From: an uncultured Clostridia bacterium
GTDB lineage: Bacteria; Bacillota; Clostridia; Oscillospirales; JAAYOS01
DNA: 41,632 bases
Assembly: GCA_944387575.1 (NCBI GenBank)
Contig: CALXFK010000054.1
Coordinates: forward strand, 1 to 41,632
Direction: 5' to 3'
In this document: one piece after another, positions 15,598 through 29,244 of the stretch
Position numbering within the stretch: position 1 is the first letter of the stretch
How the letters are laid out: each line of letters opens with the position of its first letter
Position numbers and translations under genes: made by a program
Notes under the pieces: generated by a model
Database searches by the model: none
What the model saw: the letters and a program-made list of their open reading frames with translations, nothing else
What the model was told of the DNA's origin: nothing

Positions 15598-16155
15598 TCA
15601 GTTCGCAACCTGAACAACGGCGTGCCGAATTACCTTGCCCTCTATTGAGAAGCCCTTCTGGAACACTCCCGCGATGCGGTTTGCATCAAGTGTCTCATCC
15701 TCGGTGTGCATGACCGCATTGTGCAACTCCGGATCGAACTCGTCACCGCGCGCCGCCGGGATCTCGGTTACACCGAGCTTTGCAAATACATCGTCGAGCT
15801 GACGCGCTATCATCGCCACACCCTGCTTGTATTGCTCATCCTTTGTTTCCTGCTTTACCGCAAGCTCAACATTGTCGTATACCGGAAGCAGTGCCTCCAC
15901 CGTCGACGCCTTGGCAAGCGAATAGAGCTGCTCGCGTTCCTTTGCGGTGCGCTTGCGGTAGTTGTCGTACTCGGCGGCAAGGCGCAGATACTGATCTTTC
16001 AACTCGTCGAACTCGCCTTTAAGTTTATCCAGCGCTTCCTGTGCCGATTCTACCGCCGCCTCCGCAGCATTCTCCGCCTCGGTATCCTGCTGAGCAGCAC
16101 CGGTAGCAGCGGAATTTTCGAGTGCGGCGTCATCCGCCGGCTTTTTCTTGGTCAT
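15598..16155 (-). CDS. grpE: Nucleotide exchange factor GrpE
   Basis: This 185-residue protein has an acidic, low-complexity N-terminus (about 1-35), a long coiled coil (AVESAQEALDKLKGEFDELKDQYLRLAAEYDNYRKRT) and the C-terminal beta domain with the GrpE pattern ending in GKVIRHAVVQVAN. GrpE dimers release ADP from DnaK. The ATG overlaps the hrcA stop by one base, so translation is coupled, and an AAAGGAA box precedes it. Length is typical for the family. Confidence 0.96.
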   Translation of the reverse strand: MTKKKPADDAALENSAATGAAQQDTEAENAAEAAVESAQEALDKLKGEFDELKDQYLRLAAEYDNYRKRTAKEREQLYSLAKASTVEALLPVYDNVELAVKQETKDEQYKQGVAMIARQLDDVFAKLGVTEIPAARGDEFDPELHNAVMHTEDETLDANRIAGVFQKGFSIEGKVIRHAVVQVAN

Positions 16156-17210
16156 TATTTCTGTTCCTTTCTCTCGTCACCGCTGTCCTTAGCAAACAGC
16201 GAATTGAGCCGCCTTGTGAAAAATCCGAGCCGCGACGCAACGTCAGAATACTTCATTCTGGTCGGTCCCACAACGCCTATAAGTCCTCGCATACCATCTC
16301 CGAGCTCGTAGGTCGCCGCAACGACGCTCGAGTCGCGAAGCTCTTCGCTTACGTTCTCTGTACCTATAATTATCTTGACCCGTCCTCGTTCTTCTGGTGC
16401 GGGCAGCCTCGCGTTGTCGCTCATCAGATACTCGACAAGCTTTCGCGCCTTAAATATGTCGTGAAACTCGGGGTGGTCAAATATATGCGTCGCACCATCT
16501 ACGTACACCGCGCTCCGGTCGTGCGCCGCCGCAGCATCGTGTATGAACCCGACGACCGCAGTCACAAACTCTGGCGACACACCGGTGTCCCTCGCGATCT
16601 CAAGCGCGACAGCGACCACTATTTTGTCCGCCCCGTACTCACGCAACCTCGCGTTCAGCGCCGCGGTGAGCCTCGCAAGCTCCTCCACACCCACCTCGGG
16701 CGGGTGGACAAGCACCGTGTTCTTGACCACATTCGCCGAGAACACCGCCACCACAACACAGCTCCCGCCTTCCATCGGGATTATATCCGCCTTCTTGAAG
16801 CGTATCCCCTCCGGACGCACGGTCCCTGCATACACCGCGTAGCTCGTGAGGTTGACAAGCAGCCTCGCAACATCCGCTATCATTCTGTCAATTTCGCGCA
16901 GCCGCCCGTGCAACGCGCGCTCGATACTCTCTGCCTCCTCAGCGGTTATCCTATGCGGCTCCATCAGCTCGTCGACATATAGCCGGTACCCCTTGTTCGA
17001 CGGAATCCGCCCCGCCGAGGTGTGCGGCTGCTCAAGATATCCCATGCTCTCAAGCTCGCTCATCTCGTTACGCAACGTCGCGCTGGAAAGTCCAAGATCA
17101 AGCTTCTCCGCCAGGGTGCGCGAGCCGACAGGCTCCGCATGTTCAATATAGTCGTCCACAACCGCTCTCAATATTATTTTCTTACGTTCGCCTAAAGACA
17201 TTTGAATCAC
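16155..17210 (-). CDS. hrcA: Heat-inducible transcription repressor HrcA
   Basis: The product has 351 residues: a winged-helix N-terminus with LGERKKIILRAVVDDYIEHAEPVGS and LSSATLRNEMSELESMGYLEQPHTSAGRIPS (a very conserved HrcA stretch), then a GAF-like domain and the C-terminal GLIGVVGPTRMKY segment. HrcA binds CIRCE operators and represses the heat-shock operon, with GroE as its usual folding modulator. It heads its own operon, and a perfect CIRCE lies between its promoter and start, so autoregulation is directly supported by sequence. Confidence 0.97.
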   Translation of the reverse strand: MIQMSLGERKKIILRAVVDDYIEHAEPVGSRTLAEKLDLGLSSATLRNEMSELESMGYLEQPHTSAGRIPSNKGYRLYVDELMEPHRITAEEAESIERALHGRLREIDRMIADVARLLVNLTSYAVYAGTVRPEGIRFKKADIIPMEGGSCVVVAVFSANVVKNTVLVHPPEVGVEELARLTAALNARLREYGADKIVVAVALEIARDTGVSPEFVTAVVGFIHDAAAAHDRSAVYVDGATHIFDHPEFHDIFKARKLVEYLMSDNARLPAPEERGRVKIIIGTENVSEELRDSSVVAATYELGDGMRGLIGVVGPTRMKYSDVASRLGFFTRRLNSLFAKDSGDERKEQK

Positions 17211-17251: not shown

Positions 17252-17278
17252 TTAGCACTCTTTTCTTCTGAGTGCTAA
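17252..17278 (-). promoter_or_regulatory. CIRCE operator of the hrcA-grpE-dnaK-dnaJ operon
   Basis: The sequence is TTAGCACTC (17252-17260), nine bases, GAGTGCTAA (17270-17278): an exact match to the CIRCE consensus with its 9-bp arms and 9-bp spacer. It begins four bases downstream of the -10 box, so it covers the transcription start and the early leader, as expected for HrcA repression. Confidence 0.97.
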
Positions 17279-17892: not shown

Positions 17893-18486
17893 TCACACCT
17901 CCGTTTCTCTCTTCGCACATTTGACGCATCCGACCAGCACCGGTACCCCATCCCGCATCGACAGTTCTGTCGTCCAGCTCTCAAGGTTTCCAAGACCCCA
18001 CTCATAATATCCGCGCGGCGGTTCGGCGTACCGGCTGAGGATTGACATCGCAGTCCCGCCGTGAGCCACCACAACGAGCCGTTCCGCACCGGACGCAAGC
18101 GCTTCGGCAGCAATCCGCCCGAATGCGGCGCAGCTCCTGTAGACAAACTCGTCCTTGCTCTCCCCGCCTGGACAGCACCCCTCGCACATCCCGTCTACCC
18201 ACTCGCGGTAGAGCGGGTCATCCGACATCTCGTCCGCACTGCGGTTCTCGAATACTCCGAAGTCCATCTCCCGGAAGTCCGCAATCTCCACAAGCTCCGC
18301 ACCCGGGAACAGCCGCTCCGCCGTCTGCCGTGCACGCAGCATTGGACTTATGTAAACTCGCGTGACCCCGCCTACCGGGGTAATCCGTTCAAGTTCTCCG
18401 GTGCAGACCGGTTCGTCGGTACTGCCGATATATCGGCGAAGGCGGTTCCCCGGAGTCGCACCGTGGCGAAAAATCTCAAAGGTCAT
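17893..18486 (-). CDS. cobC: Histidine phosphatase, probable alpha-ribazole phosphatase (CobC-like)
   Basis: This 197-residue phosphoglycerate mutase-superfamily protein has the phosphohistidine motif RHGATPGN (H8), the YISPMLRARQTAE segment with its conserved Arg, and the second catalytic His in VVVAHGGT. In corrinoid operons this family removes the phosphate from alpha-ribazole-5'-phosphate or adenosylcobalamin-5'-phosphate, the final step of nucleotide-loop assembly. The family call is firm. The specific role rests on context: it lies between cobU/cobS genes and the adenosyltransferase and overlaps the upstream gene by ATGA. The C-terminus has two Cys (CVKCAK) with no assigned role. Confidence 0.85.
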   Translation of the reverse strand: MTFEIFRHGATPGNRLRRYIGSTDEPVCTGELERITPVGGVTRVYISPMLRARQTAERLFPGAELVEIADFREMDFGVFENRSADEMSDDPLYREWVDGMCEGCCPGGESKDEFVYRSCAAFGRIAAEALASGAERLVVVAHGGTAMSILSRYAEPPRGYYEWGLGNLESWTTELSMRDGVPVLVGCVKCAKRETEV

Positions 18487-18839
18487 CTGCCGTTATTCTC
18501 CTTGATAACGGTAGGTATCCCGCTCACCAGCCGCACGACCCTGTCAGCGCGCTGGGCGAGTCGTACCGCGAGACGTCCGGCAGCCTCTCTGCCATCCCGC
18601 TCACGCCGTTCGAGGGGGATAACTCCGCTGCCCACCTCGCAGGTTATCACGACCTCTTTCTCACAGAGACGTTCGAGAAGCGCCGCACTGCCCTCCGGGT
18701 CGCGCATCGCCATATCCTGAACATTGAATATCACCGGGCGCGCGTCGATGACCGCATCCGCCATGTCCGTCTCCGAATATCCGAGGCTCATGACATACTC
18801 GCGCTTTCCTGACGCACGTCCGCCTGTAACCAGAATCAT
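18483..18839 (-). CDS. Short CobU-like P-loop protein (118 residues), second CobU paralogue
   Basis: The N-terminus MILVTGGRASGKREYV is a CobU Walker A, and the C-terminal half (CEVGSGVIPLERRERDGREAAGRLAVRLAQRADRVVRLVSGIPTVIK) aligns by eye with the end of CobU (NEVGMGIVP...AGRVNQRLAAAADEV...VSGI...IK). CobU is normally about 170-190 residues. The middle region with the guanylylated histidine (the RHRxxR segment) is missing here. The operon also contains a full-length CobU at 19649-20215. The shortened protein may keep a nucleotide-binding or kinase-only function, may partner the long one, or may act on another corrinoid intermediate. It overlaps cobS and the phosphatase gene by four bases each, so it is clearly translated as part of the operon. 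Confidence 0.75.
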   Translation of the reverse strand: MILVTGGRASGKREYVMSLGYSETDMADAVIDARPVIFNVQDMAMRDPEGSAALLERLCEKEVVITCEVGSGVIPLERRERDGREAAGRLAVRLAQRADRVVRLVSGIPTVIKENNGR

Positions 18840-19648: not shown

Positions 19649-20215
19649 CTATCTCTTGATAGGAAGCGGGATGCCGCACACGAGCTCATACACCTCGTCC
19701 GCGAGCGCCGCCATCTCCGAGTTTATCCTACCGAGCGCGTCCACGTACCGCATCGTGAGCTCGTCGTAACCGCCACCGTCGCTTCCAACGTCGTTTGTCA
19801 CCACCACAAGCGTTGAGGTCTGTGCCGCGAGGTTCTTCACCCCCGCGACGACTGCCGCAACCGCGCGTTCCGCGTCCGCCTCACCGACCGAGCCGTCTCC
19901 GCTGTTCTCGTCCATATTCTCCCCGGAGAACATCTCGTTTGCGGTGAGATTGCACAGGCACTCGAGAAGCGCCGTTCCTCCGTGCACCGGCAGCTCCAGT
20001 CCTGCGGTATCGGTGTACCTCTCGACCGTCTCAAAACCCTTCTCACAGCGCATTTCACGGTGCCGCTCAATGCGTTTCAGACTCTCTTCGCCGAACGGCT
20101 GCATCGCCGCGACATAGAAGAGCGGTCCGCCCGCCGCAGCCTCCACCGCGAGCTTTTCGGCATAGGTGCTCTTCCCGCATGCCGAGCCTCCGGTGAGCAA
20201 TATCATTCTTCCCAT
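19649..20215 (-). CDS. cobU: Adenosylcobinamide kinase / adenosylcobinamide-phosphate guanylyltransferase
   Basis: This 188-residue P-loop enzyme phosphorylates adenosylcobinamide and then attaches GMP. LLTGGSACGKSTYAEKLA is the Walker A; RIERHREMRCEKGFETVE contains the guanylylated His region; the ending VTNDVGSDGGGYDELTMRYVDALGRINSEMAALADEVYELVCGIPLPIK is the CobU C-terminus. An acidic insert (GENMDENSGDGSVGEADAE) in the middle is atypical. GGGGGAGAG precedes the ATG. It lies between cobT and cobS, the canonical arrangement for nucleotide-loop assembly. Confidence 0.94.
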   Translation of the reverse strand: MGRMILLTGGSACGKSTYAEKLAVEAAAGGPLFYVAAMQPFGEESLKRIERHREMRCEKGFETVERYTDTAGLELPVHGGTALLECLCNLTANEMFSGENMDENSGDGSVGEADAERAVAAVVAGVKNLAAQTSTLVVVTNDVGSDGGGYDELTMRYVDALGRINSEMAALADEVYELVCGIPLPIKR

Positions 20216-21297: not shown

Positions 21298-22046
21298 TGT
21301 TCAAACATCCCTCTCATATATTCAACTACGTCAAGCGAGTATACGCGCCTGAGATTTTCGCGTGAAAGCACCTTCTTTGTCTCTCCATACTCGACGGCGT
21401 GACCATGCTCTAGCAATAGCGTCCGCGTACCGAACGCGCGCGCAAGACTCAGGTCGTGCACCACTGATACGACCGAGCGCCCGGTCTGGGCTATCCAATC
21501 GCGCACAAGCGAGAATGTCTGTTTTTGATAGACTAGGTCAAGATGGTTTGTCGGCTCGTCGAGCAACATAAGCTCCGGATCCTGCGCAATGAGCTGCGCA
21601 AGAAACGCGCGCTGGAGCTCCCCGCCGGACAGCGTGAGCACAGATTGTGAGCGAAGCGCGGTCATCCCTGTGAGTTCGAGAGCCCGCTCGACCGCGTCGT
21701 TATCCCCGTTTCCCGCACCGCCGAAGAGACCGCGTGAATGCGAATACCTGCCGAGCCGAACCACCTCCTCGACCGAAAATGAGTAGCTCACCCAGTGGTT
21801 CTGCGTGAGAACACCGAGCTTTCTCGCGAGCTTCGCCGGCTTCATGCGTGCCGCGTCCTCCCCGTCGAGGCGGACCGAACCGGTGTACTTCACGTTCTGC
21901 GAGATTGCCCCGATTATCGTGGACTTTCCCGCCCCGTTCGGTCCCGCTATCATCAGCCACTCCCCGTCGGGCAGCGTGAAACTTATCCCATCCACTATAG
22001 TGAGCGCACCGTATGCGACGGTGAGATTTTCAAGTTCGAGCATCAT
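21270..22046 (-). CDS. ABC transporter ATP-binding protein, corrinoid/siderophore (BtuD/FecE) type
   Basis: This 258-residue ABC ATPase has Walker A GPNGAGKS, Q-loop QNHWVSY, signature LSGGELQRAF, Walker B LMLLDEPTNHLD and the H-loop VSVVHDLSLA. It is of the FecE/BtuD/FhuC subfamily that powers uptake of iron-siderophores or cobalamin. It overlaps the FecC/BtuC-type permease by ATGA and is followed by cobT, so corrinoid import is the most economical reading. No substrate-binding protein gene (BtuF-like) is present in the window and must lie elsewhere. Confidence 0.9.
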   Translation of the reverse strand: MMLELENLTVAYGALTIVDGISFTLPDGEWLMIAGPNGAGKSTIIGAISQNVKYTGSVRLDGEDAARMKPAKLARKLGVLTQNHWVSYSFSVEEVVRLGRYSHSRGLFGGAGNGDNDAVERALELTGMTALRSQSVLTLSGGELQRAFLAQLIAQDPELMLLDEPTNHLDLVYQKQTFSLVRDWIAQTGRSVVSVVHDLSLARAFGTRTLLLEHGHAVEYGETKKVLSRENLRRVYSLDVVEYMRGMFEQWNDSTLDV

Positions 22047-23083
22047 CCACCTCTCCTTGTGCGCCAGAATATCAACACGAACACTATCGAGCCTATAAAC
22101 GATGTCACTACTCCGGCGGGCAACTCGAGCGGGCTCAACACCGTGCGTGACACAAGGTCAGCAAGCAGCAGGAACACCGCCCCCGCAAACATTGACGCCG
22201 GAAGCAGCTTGCGGTGGTTTGGTCCGGTGAACATCCGCGTCATGTGCGGCGTGACCAATCCAACGAACCCGATGGTCCCGCTCACCGAGACGCATATGCC
22301 TATCATTGCGGACACCGACACCATTATAATAAGCTTTACGCGACGCACGTTAACCCCAACACCGCGCGCATTCTCCTCACCCACCGCAAAAGCATTCAGC
22401 TCACGCGCGTGCAGCAATATCACCGCGCCGAGCGCTACAAATGCTCCCGCAAGCACTAGAACCTCTGTGTAACCCTTTCCACTGAGCGAACCCATCGTCC
22501 AGAACATAATCTGACGCACCCGGTCACCCGCGAAGGTCACCACAAGGCTGATGATACTGCTCACAAACATTGAGAATATCACGCCTATCAGGATTATAGT
22601 GTTTGTCGCAAGCGAATAATCGAGCTTGTATGCGAGAGCAAGTATTACTATTAGTGACAGGAACGCAGATATCATCGAAAGCGCAGTCACCCCGGCAAAC
22701 GACACCCCCGGAACAACTATCCCAAACGCAAGCGCCGCCACCGCACCGAGACTCGCTCCAGAGGACACCCCGAGCGTCGACCCGTCTGCAAGAGGGTTTT
22801 TCAGGAGACCCTGCATCGCCGCACCGCTCACCGATAGCATCGCACCTATCAGTGCCGTGCATATCACCCGCGGGATCCTGACCCGCAAAATTATCGCGCT
22901 GTATGTATTCGACTGCTCCTCACCGCATATCGCGCGCCATACTATTTGAACTGTGTCCCCGATAGGAACCCTGACGCTCCCGAGGCACACACATATCAGC
23001 GCTGCCGACAGCGTTACCGCAGCAAATATCGCGTACCACCCCGCGCCGAATCCCTCTCGTTGCCTTACCGCAGCCATCTTCAC
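22043..23083 (-). CDS. ABC transporter permease, FecCD/BtuC family (probable corrinoid importer)
   Basis: This 346-residue protein has about ten membrane helices. Family motifs seen: LRVRIPRVICTALIGAMLSVSGAAMQGLLKNPLADGSTLGVSSGASLGA (the FecCD core), GSLSGKGYTEVL, and GFVGLVTPHMTRMFTGPNHRKLLPASMFAGAVFLLLADLVSR near the end, which contacts the ATPase. The start is a GTG with GGAGG ten bases upstream; an in-frame ATG two codons later is the alternative. It is the first gene of the corrinoid operon, behind a 157-base structured leader. The family also moves siderophores and heme; context favours corrinoids. Confidence 0.9.
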   Translation of the reverse strand: MKMAAVRQREGFGAGWYAIFAAVTLSAALICVCLGSVRVPIGDTVQIVWRAICGEEQSNTYSAIILRVRIPRVICTALIGAMLSVSGAAMQGLLKNPLADGSTLGVSSGASLGAVAALAFGIVVPGVSFAGVTALSMISAFLSLIVILALAYKLDYSLATNTIILIGVIFSMFVSSIISLVVTFAGDRVRQIMFWTMGSLSGKGYTEVLVLAGAFVALGAVILLHARELNAFAVGEENARGVGVNVRRVKLIIMVSVSAMIGICVSVSGTIGFVGLVTPHMTRMFTGPNHRKLLPASMFAGAVFLLLADLVSRTVLSPLELPAGVVTSFIGSIVFVLIFWRTRRGG

Positions 23084-23135
23084 CAGGTCACGTCCTCCGT
23101 TTTTTGTGCGTTTTTAATGTTTTTAAGTTTGGTCT

Positions 23136-23252
23136 ATTATAACATTACGGCAAAGCCGGAATGGTATAATGTGCCATGTTTTTCGGTTGTCCCGTAAGGG
23201 ACGATAAAAACGGCTTGAAACGAAGTATAATAACCGCCTTGCGGTTATTATA
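23136..23252 (-). promoter_or_regulatory. Structured 5' leader of the corrinoid operon (three hairpins)
   Basis: Three stem-loops lie between recJ and the permease gene. H1 is at 23226-23252: a perfect 12-bp stem TATAATAACCGC/GCGGTTATTATA with loop CTT. H2 is at 23178-23211: an outer GTTTTT/AAAAAC stem and an inner GTCCC/GGGAC stem with loop GTAA. H3 is at 23136-23170: about 14 bp with two A-G mismatches, core CGGC-AAA-GCCG and ends ATTATA/TATAAT. None is followed by a T-tract on the transcribed strand. The conserved B12-box of cobalamin riboswitches is absent. Confidence 0.7.
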
Positions 23253-23275
23253 ACATGCCGGCCGGACTAGGTCAA
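23247..23275 (-). promoter_or_regulatory. Sigma-A promoter of the corrinoid operon
   Basis: On the - strand TTGACC (23270-23275) and a perfect TATAAT (23247-23252) are separated by 17 bases. The -35 box overlaps the recJ stop codon and the -10 box is one arm of hairpin H1, so transcription would start near 23240 within the hairpin. This allows the operon to be expressed independently of recJ. Confidence 0.82.
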
Positions 23276-25239
23276 CGCGCCTGCGGCGGACTGCACAGCA
23301 GAGTGTCCCCCACCGCCGCGAGCGGACGCCGGTACCTCTTTCCGCGGTACTCGACCGAGATCCAGTCCTCCCCGCAGTCGAGCGCGCGCACCGTCTCCCC
23401 GTTTTTGCAGTACATGACAGGAGCATCATCTGACTCTCTCTCACAGTCAACGACGAACTCCGCCTTGGCATTTCCACCCCACTCGTCTACGGTCACATGT
23501 CCATGGAGCGGGCGGCGAGTGCAGATTATATCGAGAAGCTCGCGTTCCGCTCCGTTCCAGACCACCGCGCCAAGCCCGCTCTCGGTGTCCCATATACGCA
23601 CATGTTCGCGCTTCTTTCCGAATATTCGCACTCTGCCCGTCCGGTAACCGCACACCTCTATTAAAAACGGCGGAAACCCCTCGCCGAATGGCTCAAATCC
23701 CGCAAGTTCGCGCGCGAGTCGCAAGGTTATCCTGTCCGGACTGAGCCGTGCGTCGCATACCTTCTGCGCCGGCGGGACCTCGGTCTGCTCCGCAAGCTCG
23801 CAGAACCGCCTCCGCAACTCCCCGAGGCACTTCTCCAGGGTACTGAACCCCGCAGCCCGCATGTGCCCGCCGTAGGATGTGACAAGTCCCTCCTGCGCAA
23901 GCACCGAGAGTATATTTACAAGCGAAAATCCCTCAGGTGCGCGGCAGGACGCTTTGAGCACACCGCCATCGTGCCGCGCGAGTACCGCGGATGGACACCC
24001 GGTCTGCTCAGTTATCCGACCCGCGACTATTCCAGCTATCCCCTCGGTAAAACTCTCATCGAACAACACCTGTGCCGCGCTCCCTTTCTCGACCGCGCTG
24101 AGTGCCGCCGCAGTCTGGTCCGCCGTGAGCTGCTTGCGCTGTTCATTGAGCACCTCGAGCTTCATCACCGCGCGTCGCGCCGCCTCTGCATCCCCCGCAA
24201 GCAGCAGCTCAAGCGCTGCCGCAGGGCTACCAGTCACCCGCGCGGGCGCGTTGAGCATAGGTGCGTAACCGTACGCAATGGTCTTCGCATCCACGTTTCC
24301 CCCCGAAGCGGACGCCTCCCCGAGTACACGGAAAGCGGGTCGTGTCCGGGCGTTTACCCTTTTCAGCCCCTCTATAACTATCGCGCGGTTGTACCCTACT
24401 AGCGGCATCGCGTCCGCCACAGTAGCTACCGCCGCAAGGTCGAGCCCCGCAAGCGCTTTTTCAGTACCGATGCCTGCGAGCTCCGCAAATTTCAACATCA
24501 CTCCGAGCGCCACAGCCGCGCCGCAAAAATCACGCGCACCGGCGTCCATAGCCGAGACAGTGCCGCCACTTCTGCATTTGGGGTCAACTATCGCATCTGC
24601 ATCCGGTAGCCTGTCCGCCGGCTCGTGGTGATCGGTCACCACCACCGAAAGCCCGAGCTTGCGAGCGTGCGCAACACCTTCAAAAGCGCTTATCCCATTG
24701 TCCACAGTGAGTACAAGACTCACCTCGGGATGCCTTCGCACTATCTCGTCCACCCCGCCGGGACTCATTCCGTACCCATCCCCGCCGCGCAGATTCGAGT
24801 ACATCACCACGCGCACCCCCGCAGCACGGAGCGTCTCGACCGCTATCGCTGCCGCACATACACCATCCGCATCATAGTCGTGGTACACGGCGCACACACC
24901 GTCTGAACACCTGCACTCCAGTATCAGCTCCGCGGCGCGATGCGCGCCCTCAAGCGACATGAGTGCCTCAACCGCCGCTCCGATATCTACCGCAAGTAGC
25001 TGCCGTACCTTCTGCGCGCTGTCAAATCCGCGCCGCCACAACATGTCCGCCGTTTCCGCAGAATACCCTATTTCCTTTGCAAATCCCTCCGGCGCGCCGC
25101 CCTCTCTGCATACATACTTCCCTGACAAAACCTCTGCCTCCGCAAAAAACTTTTCTTCATCGGCTGCACCGCCGAAATAAGTCAAAATACCAATTTTAAT
25201 AATACTCCATATCCACTCGACCAGGCAAGTCAATTTCAT
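23272..25239 (-). CDS. recJ: Single-stranded-DNA-specific exonuclease RecJ
   Basis: This is a DHH-family 5'-3' ssDNA exonuclease for recombination and mismatch repair. Numbered from the ATG at 25239, motif I is AVYHDYDADG (117-126), motif II LVLTVDNGIS (176-185) and motif III VVTDHHEPAD (200-209), followed by a long DHHA1 region and an OB-like C-terminal part. The frame stays open to a GTG at 25275, but neither start has a good ribosome binding site: a GAGGG lies 14 bases before the ATG. At about 655 residues it is longer than many RecJ proteins (around 570); the surplus is C-terminal, including an SH3-like tail. The Asp and His catalytic residues are all present. Confidence 0.92.
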   Translation of the reverse strand: MKLTCLVEWIWSIIKIGILTYFGGAADEEKFFAEAEVLSGKYVCREGGAPEGFAKEIGYSAETADMLWRRGFDSAQKVRQLLAVDIGAAVEALMSLEGAHRAAELILECRCSDGVCAVYHDYDADGVCAAAIAVETLRAAGVRVVMYSNLRGGDGYGMSPGGVDEIVRRHPEVSLVLTVDNGISAFEGVAHARKLGLSVVVTDHHEPADRLPDADAIVDPKCRSGGTVSAMDAGARDFCGAAVALGVMLKFAELAGIGTEKALAGLDLAAVATVADAMPLVGYNRAIVIEGLKRVNARTRPAFRVLGEASASGGNVDAKTIAYGYAPMLNAPARVTGSPAAALELLLAGDAEAARRAVMKLEVLNEQRKQLTADQTAAALSAVEKGSAAQVLFDESFTEGIAGIVAGRITEQTGCPSAVLARHDGGVLKASCRAPEGFSLVNILSVLAQEGLVTSYGGHMRAAGFSTLEKCLGELRRRFCELAEQTEVPPAQKVCDARLSPDRITLRLARELAGFEPFGEGFPPFLIEVCGYRTGRVRIFGKKREHVRIWDTESGLGAVVWNGAERELLDIICTRRPLHGHVTVDEWGGNAKAEFVVDCERESDDAPVMYCKNGETVRALDCGEDWISVEYRGKRYRRPLAAVGDTLLCSPPQAR

Positions 25240-28878: not shown

Positions 28879-28910
28879 AACGCGGTGGGACCTCACGGTC
28901 CCACCGCGTT
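28879..28910 (-). terminator. Terminator of rnpB
   Basis: A perfect 14-bp stem (28879-28892 with 28897-28910, AACGCGGTGGGACC) has a 4-base loop and is followed on the - strand by GCGTTTTT. It lies a few bases after the 3' end of the RNase P RNA and also separates it from the convergent ABC exporter gene. Confidence 0.9.
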
Positions 28911-28912
28911 CT

Positions 28913-29244
28913 GCGAGCGGGTCTATAAGCCGAGTTCTGTATTCGTCAGCCATCTATCTTGGGCGCACGTTGCCGCACACCTCCTGCCACCCGTCCGGGG
29001 ATGCCGGGCAGGCTTGACCCCCGTGTCGGTGTTGCTCCGGGTAGAGTTTACAGACCTCCCGCGTTACCGCGGGACGTGGTGAGCTCTTACCTCGCCTTTC
29101 CACCCTTACCGGCGAGAACGCCGGCGGTATATCTCTGTTGCACTCGTCCTGAAGTCGCCTTCGGCGGATGTTATCCGCTACCCTTGCCCTGTGGAGCTCG
29201 GACTTTCCTCACGGTCTCCCGCGCGGCTGACCAACCGGCTCGCC
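28913..29244 (-). ncRNA. rnpB: RNase P RNA (catalytic subunit of ribonuclease P)
   Basis: On the - strand the conserved core elements appear in order: GAGGAAAGTCCGAGCTCC, an ACAGAGA segment, GGTAAGAGCTCACC, GTAAACTC, GATAGATGGCTGAC and near the 3' end ACAGAACTCGGCTTA. The P4 strands read CCGAG and CTCGG instead of the common CCGGG and CCCGG, a compensated pair. The ends form P1 (GCGAGC with GCTCGC), which fixes the gene at about 332 bases. It matures the 5' ends of tRNAs. Promoter and terminator are both visible, so it is an independent transcription unit, divergent from murD. Confidence 0.96.

Follow-up and report, generated by a model that had tools for sequence, protein, structure and literature searches.

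The operon for corrinoid uptake and assembly in the window (the whole 41,632-nucleotide stretch analyzed here, a contig of an uncultured Clostridia bacterium) is preceded by a leader with three hairpins, and the question is what this leader is. An earlier note, made from the letters alone, had considered a divergent corrinoid sensor, a protein-binding RNA or a family of small palindromic repeats. We conclude, with a probability of roughly 0.86, that the leader carries a single copy of a palindromic, non-autonomous mobile DNA element, which entered immediately downstream of the -10 in the native promoter of the btuC operon.

The features that the note had listed were largely borne out. The promoter TTGACC-17-TATAAT is present on the minus strand (23275-23247), a TG precedes its -10, and it is the sole promoter-like match in 22700-23600 (shuffle mean, 0.4). 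All three stem-loops were found (Table 1); by sequence, H1 overlaps the -10 box, and H1 and H3 have common TATAAT/ATTATA ends. Only the statement that no hairpin carries a T-tract needs qualification, for H1, which a simple terminator scan flagged with a weak T-tail (one found, 0.6 expected). Behind the btuC-like gene, the operon continues with genes for an ABC ATPase, CobT-, CobU- and CobS-type proteins, a second short CobU-like protein, a histidine phosphatase and a CobA-type adenosyltransferase; the short CobU-like protein (18483-18839, minus strand) matches the C-terminal part of its family only, and the full CobU is encoded at 19649-20215. Elsewhere in the window lie a bacterial class A RNase P RNA (28910-29242, minus strand, 260.7 bits) and, just upstream of hrcA (16155-17210, minus strand), a perfect palindromic operator, TTAGCACTC-N9-GAGTGCTAA (17252-17278), which we take to be of the CIRCE type.

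Table 1. The btuC-operon leader in the window, cobalamin riboswitches of the same genome, and eight promoters compared with element-free orthologs
Feature	Position, or distance from left to right -10 (nt)	Strand	Description
Native -35 box TTGACC	23275-23270	minus	By sequence; outside the element; other copies also enriched for 17-nt spacing
Native extended -10 box TGTTATAAT, presumed insertion target	23247-23255	minus	By sequence; target position shown at eight other promoters
TATAAT of native -10	23252-23247	minus	Begins H1 5' arm; TG before it
Inserted element, 111 nt (proposed)	23136-23246	minus	Limits by analogy with filled and empty promoters elsewhere
Hairpin H1	23226-23252	minus	Perfect 12-bp stem; native TATAAT plus element A-n-CCGC, loop, GCGG-n-TATTATA
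Hairpin H2	23173-23214	minus	Stem with internal loop and AT bulge
Hairpin H3	23136-23170	minus	Right-end -10 forms its 3' arm
Right-end extended -10 box TGTTATAAT	23136-23144	minus	By sequence; promoter-like distance to gene
Remaining short leader	23084-23135	minus	By sequence; GGAGG ribosome-binding site at 23098-23094
First operon gene, FecCD permease (btuC-like)	22043-23083	minus	Pfam FecCD, E 5.9e-87
Cobalamin riboswitches	L081 1501-1712; L087 1501-1719		Contigs 28 and 37; before CbiK gene and Peripla_BP_2 (BtuF-like) gene
Aminotransferase promoter	111		Downstream resumes; no length change
lexA promoter	111		No length change; next ten bases identical
Metallophosphoesterase promoter	217		Two units; no length change downstream
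Methyltransferase promoter	109		No length change downstream
Radical SAM promoter	109		2-5 nt difference downstream; right box CGTAAT
Sigma factor promoter	220		Two units; 2-5 nt difference downstream; empty ortholog -10 TTGTATAAT
DFP promoter	111		2-5 nt difference downstream; empty ortholog -10 TGGTATACT
Unnamed gene (L052) promoter	111		Downstream diverged

The note had also stated that the conserved cobalamin-riboswitch box is missing, and the Rfam search agreed. No family reached its gathering score on the leader, and at E≤10 the interval 22900-23400 gave only a 14.6-bit microRNA match (cutoff 68) and none to RF00174. The RF00174 model did find two cobalamin riboswitches elsewhere in the same genome, and a corrinoid riboswitch at the leader was rejected. 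The btuC-cobTUS operon is without a cobalamin riboswitch, and since those found elsewhere stand before the CbiK and Peripla_BP_2 genes, B12 control seems to be split between operons.

When the leader was used as a query against its own genome (1.85 Mb, 109 contigs), 13 matches were obtained, including itself; the six longest other copies showed 89-94% identity over 119-128 nt. A covariance model built from 35 units (R1) gave 11 matches, among them a tandem pair on contig 18 with a spacing of 111 nt. The hairpins are therefore repeated across the genome, so that the refuting condition set in the earlier note, many genomic copies, came out positive. The palindromic-repeat option of the note was right in kind, but the family is not a simple REP: it is a 111-nt, three-hairpin element inserted immediately behind sigma-A -10 boxes. 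Within the same family, 6 of 10 genomes, own genome counted, matched by DNA. The copies in genus g3 (G003-G006) were mostly 73-83% identical, several of them in tandem at 110-111 nt, and most matches in G009 covered H1 only. Copies in the genome of the window are more alike than copies of different genera, which suggests that the element has been amplified within lineages.

At a wider scale, 34 of the 197 genomes from the order, presumably Oscillospirales, had R1 matches (22 of 110 genera), as did 14 of the 291 from the class (five from the same order and nine from other orders); calibration of the model was short, so that E-values are rough, and the weakest of these hits have one match each. 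The exact H1 pattern occurred in at least 118 stretches of a named genome collection (an H1 match by itself is no proof of a complete unit). Among the 80 matches listed, the organisms include Anaerotruncus colihominis, Provencibacterium, Papillibacter, Butyricicoccus, Intestinimonas, Oscillibacter, Pygmaiobacter and Marasmitruncus, and several of these stretches (e.g., L121, L126 and L162) have no full unit. In A. colihominis DSM 17241, the H1 pattern matched 43 times and the H3 pattern 38 times per strand, compared to 0 for a reversed control pattern. At 12 H1 sites without an exact H3 nearby, picked by eye, an H2-like sequence followed H1 in every case, with H3 degraded or missing. An array of nine near-identical units in this strain (L328, at about 396 kb) looks like a recent tandem amplification. 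Searches of viral contigs with two exact element patterns and of the named genome collection with one exact pattern other than that of H1 gave no match. No description of the element was found in Rfam or the open-licence literature.

The insertion site was read from filled and empty promoters. For 14 genes downstream of g3 copies, orthologs were sought in G002-G006 and their upstream regions aligned, which yielded eight usable comparisons (Table 1); four G002 upstream stretches (L274, L278, L286 and L289) were left out of the alignments. At all eight promoters, one or two units of 109-111 nt each lie directly after the native -10, in one orientation, and every unit has a -10-like box at its far end, which is not always a perfect -10 (e.g., in front of the radical SAM gene). 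The empty orthologs carry a -10 themselves, TGnTATAAT in six of the eight. The uracil-DNA glycosylase and QueH loci were consistent with this arrangement and are rearranged or diverged; for the HD, M24 and kinase loci, no usable empty ortholog was found. Since the sole btuC relative in the family at E≤1e-40 (G007) has 34% identity, an empty site at btuC itself is not visible. At some empty sites, a unit could have been lost by precise deletion between the direct repeats, so that these need not be sites that were never filled. In G004, a lone H3 palindrome stands upstream of an EF-G-like gene (L282) where relatives carry whole units; it may be what an excision or a deletion left behind. The lexA promoter is filled in the genome of the window and in G005 and empty in G004 and G006; because H2 in each copy is typical of its genus, the two copies suggest independent insertions at one promoter. 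A copy is also found at mreB in two genera, that in G009 being an H1-type variant.

The targets are real promoters. The sequence ahead of the left -10 was scored for -35 boxes at 88 sites that have no adjacent H3; orthologous loci of related genomes were kept, and the sites are not fully independent. At spacings of 16-18 nt, at least four of six -35 positions matched at 42 of the 88 sites (9.5 expected from shifted positions) and at least five of six at 16 (1.6 expected). Matches of at least five of six positions at exactly 17 nt numbered 12, and the next highest count over spacings of 6-33 nt was 5, at 7 nt. The window, with TTGACC-17-TGTTATAAT, is among the matching sites, and on this reading the promoter described in the earlier note is the native promoter whose -10 the unit inserted behind.

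Orientation relative to genes was scored on 116 units in 110 clusters, which left 106 loci once equal flanks were removed; orthologous loci were kept here too, so that the loci are not fully independent. One source contributed 59 of 111 matches (45 bits or more; two cut by a locus end were dropped) and the other 57 of 77 (second hits to a single place, shadows on the reverse strand and the majority of the weaker matches were dropped). According to codon-trained open reading frame calls, the unit lay outside predicted genes at 103 of the 106 loci. Eight loci without a downstream gene call and the three with units inside predicted open reading frames were set aside, and the downstream gene was in sense at 91 of the 95 scored, at a median distance of 51 nt. 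In co-directional gaps, sense copies outnumbered antisense copies by 35 to 1, the sole exception lying between grpE and dnaK (L030), and three units lay in convergent gaps; at three further loci the predicted downstream gene was not in sense. The genes themselves have no evident common function: 87 of the 98 called downstream proteins were taken (the 11 left out include the four not in sense), and these matched 106 Pfam families, none of which occurred in more than three proteins. A common regulon was rejected because the top 25 of the 106 families gave no sign of a shared downstream function.

A TG stands at the 5' end of 95 of 102 units, and the right-end TATAAT is exact in 62 of 102, truncated units counted. 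In 75 of 94 units, the N of TGnTATAAT is the same at the left and the right end, an agreement that also fits plain target-site duplication. The two differ in the other 19; in 18 of these, the right N pairs with the H3 arm and thus looks element-borne. In 4 of 94 units, one of them that of the window, the right N is identical to the left N and is not the complement of the H3 arm. The right end may thus be either element-borne or copied from the target. This pattern at N speaks against the mobile-element reading, as do the four loci not in sense and the possible precise deletions at empty sites. Inspection of the ends revealed no terminal inverted repeats. We consider the family and its insertion site well supported. 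Most likely, the family is shared by many Clostridia, and its units land immediately downstream of the -10 and in most cases carry a further -10 at the far end. Insertion after the -10, with the unit's own box at its end, accounts for the sense orientation, for the native -35 found 17 nt upstream and for the head-to-tail arrays, which are expected because each unit end is again a target. It also leaves the native promoter intact upstream, while the box of the unit replaces the native -10 near the gene.

The same arrangement could be explained by a portable promoter or cis-regulatory module, whose sense copies are kept since their extended -10 boxes raise or regulate expression. The 91 sense copies among 95 loci, close to the predicted gene, the TG in 95 of 102 units and the lexA and mreB copies in two genera each (with the H1-type variant in G009) are in line with such a role, which is compatible with mobility. 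However, the downstream genes are unrelated, and element-free orthologs have their own -10 at the same place, so that the element adds no missing promoter. Moreover, the right-end TATAAT is exact in only the 62 units, and for some altered boxes the hairpin shows a compensating change (L062, L064 and L014), which argues that the fold outranks the box. We therefore regard this explanation as unlikely.

A sub-case of the mobile-element reading is a REP-like element mobilized by a Y1 (HUH) transposase of the RAYT or IS200 type. The element resembles the IS200/IS605 and REP elements described in PMC6006769 in that its hairpins keep conserved bulges, its target is oriented and flanks one end, and its arms are guide-like; the genome of the window also holds a broken Y1_Tnp fragment with internal stops (contig 38:14195-14335), while G009 has two Y1 matches, one of them under the cutoff. 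Nevertheless, Y1_Tnp was found in none of the five g3 genomes (drafts, in which a single absence is no proof), four of which hold 8-15 R1 matches and polymorphic sites. Across the order, it occurred in 12 of 34 element-bearing genomes versus 60 of 163 without the element, the two sets of 197 genomes behind these counts being taken as identical. GTAG, the REP tag according to PMC3733652, appears anywhere in just 5 of 102 units, and CGTC in 29 of 102, within the H2 stem rather than at a hairpin foot where it was read by eye. A REP/RAYT partner is not supported, as Y1_Tnp was not found in the five g3 genomes and does not co-occur with the element across the order, and mobilization by a Y1 enzyme is accordingly unlikely. 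A search for an autonomous copy, with H1 and H3 paired further apart in L093-L196, gave 14 candidates, and the five inspected had no transposase between the matched ends. By eye, one locus (L171, minus strand, about 60-2485) has a long serine-recombinase-like frame beside an H1-type palindrome, with no proper H3 at its right edge. Neither these candidates nor the A. colihominis sites yielded an autonomous copy or an enzyme, which counts against the mobile-element reading.

All three hairpins are kept by compensatory change. In the window, the RNA fold of 23084-23247 was far better than those of dinucleotide shuffles (z, -4.5), as was the DNA fold of 23135-23255 (z, -4.76). In a chosen subset of the loci, with 102 units taken from 94 sources, compensatory changes were seen at each of the 35 modelled pairs, with 487 doubly changed cells compared to a shuffle mean of 110 and to 65-84 with partners slid, and 96.7% of cells paired, in an alignment fitted to the model, which favors structure. 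A MAFFT alignment of 35 units already showed double changes at 18 of the 35 pairs. The internal loop and AT bulge of H2 are kept in most units despite changing stems; the loop is asymmetric, TC versus AACC in most relatives and ATC in the window copy, and the signature C[TC]C...[AG]ACCG occurs in 79 of 102 units. The middle hairpin is of another type in some lineages. G009 (L065-L073) has a variant unit with H1 and H3 and without H2, and three loci of family f18 (L104, L105 and L108) have an enlarged H1, with units of 145-148 nt as matched.

RNA-level selection on the transcribed strand should leave clearly more G-U than A-C mismatches. Over all stems, we counted 55 G-T and 39 A-C mismatches; without the closing pair of H2 (18 G-T and 2 A-C), which we decided to leave out after the counts were seen, there were 37 of each. 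A control of 18 tRNAs gave 24 G-T and 0 A-C, a control biased by ARAGORN, which selects for pairing. As G-T does not clearly outnumber A-C in either count, selection seems to have acted on the fold at the level of DNA and not of RNA. In addition, the 5' arm of H1 contains the -10 and is therefore absent from the transcript of its own promoter.

Near-equal G-T and A-C counts together with compensatory changes would also arise by template switching, if the palindromes were kept by mutation alone, through hairpin-templated correction of quasi-palindromes and in the absence of mobility. We consider this very unlikely, since the asymmetric H2 loop and the AT bulge survive in most units while the flanking stems change, and the presence or absence of whole units at orthologous promoters would be left unexplained. 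Even less probable is a riboregulator of the B12 operon, whether the divergent corrinoid sensor or the protein-binding leader RNA of the earlier note: the position before btuC-btuD-cobT-cobU-cobS-like genes, the strong fold and the conserved H2 internal loop would suit it, but the same unit precedes numerous unrelated genes (among them lexA, mreB and a DNA_gyraseB-domain gene), H1 has the -10 in its 5' arm, which cannot be in the transcript started there, there is little or no wobble preference and no Rfam match, and the genome has its cobalamin riboswitches before the Peripla_BP_2 and CbiK genes.

For the preferred reading, a mobile DNA element, we infer single-strand transposition. The element would move as folded single-stranded DNA, and a putative transposase or recombinase would bind H2 via its conserved internal loop and bulge. 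The 3' arm of H1 and the 5' arm of H3, which face TATAAT, might guide pairing with the target and the right end, as in IS200/IS605, and the target may be reached while RNA polymerase melts the -10. Much btuC transcription would now start from the right-end -10 and give a transcript without the hairpins. Taken together, these steps would define a class of mobile DNA that enters polymerase-melted -10 boxes as folded single strands, is guided to TATAAT by its arms, is moved by a non-Y1 enzyme and is tolerated because it restores the -10; we put this forward as a tentative proposal that is possible rather than probable. If true, a class-wide family homing to the -10 and restoring the box would show very cleanly how a mobile element can choose its targets without harm. 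The family points to a putative enzyme with TATAAT specificity, the element alters how the promoters of lexA, mreB and many further genes are laid out in these Clostridia, and such copies can pass for conserved regulatory RNA in motif searches.

Compared to known systems, the element resembles a cobalamin riboswitch (RF00174) in being a structured sequence upstream of a B12 operon and differs in having no Rfam match or wobble preference and in preceding unrelated genes. Like the MITEs of DDE insertion sequences, it is non-autonomous, short, present or absent between relatives and flanked by direct repeats (the two -10 boxes), but it is without terminal inverted repeats, and its right box lies within an internal hairpin and, in 19 of 94 units, has another N than the left box. 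With TnGBS, ISLre2 and ISKra4 it shares an insertion specificity relative to sigma-A promoters, which is oriented in TnGBS and ISLre2. According to PMC3942029, however, the insertion point of TnGBS and its relatives is 15-17 bp upstream of the -35, and these transposons possess inverted repeats and a DDE transposase, whereas our element lies directly after the -10, with no inverted terminal repeats and no gene. A fixed target at the left end, subterminal hairpins and the lack of terminal inverted repeats are features that it shares with IS200/IS605-derived elements. REP/BIME sequences with their RAYT (TnpA_REP) and IS200/IS605 ends are likewise small, intergenic, present in many copies and built of irregular hairpins without terminal inverted repeats, with a sequence target flanking one end and arms that could be guides. 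In contrast to these systems, the element is a unit of about 111 nt with three hairpins that targets the sigma-A -10 and lies in sense before genes, has GTAG in only 5 of 102 units and does not co-occur with Y1 transposases.
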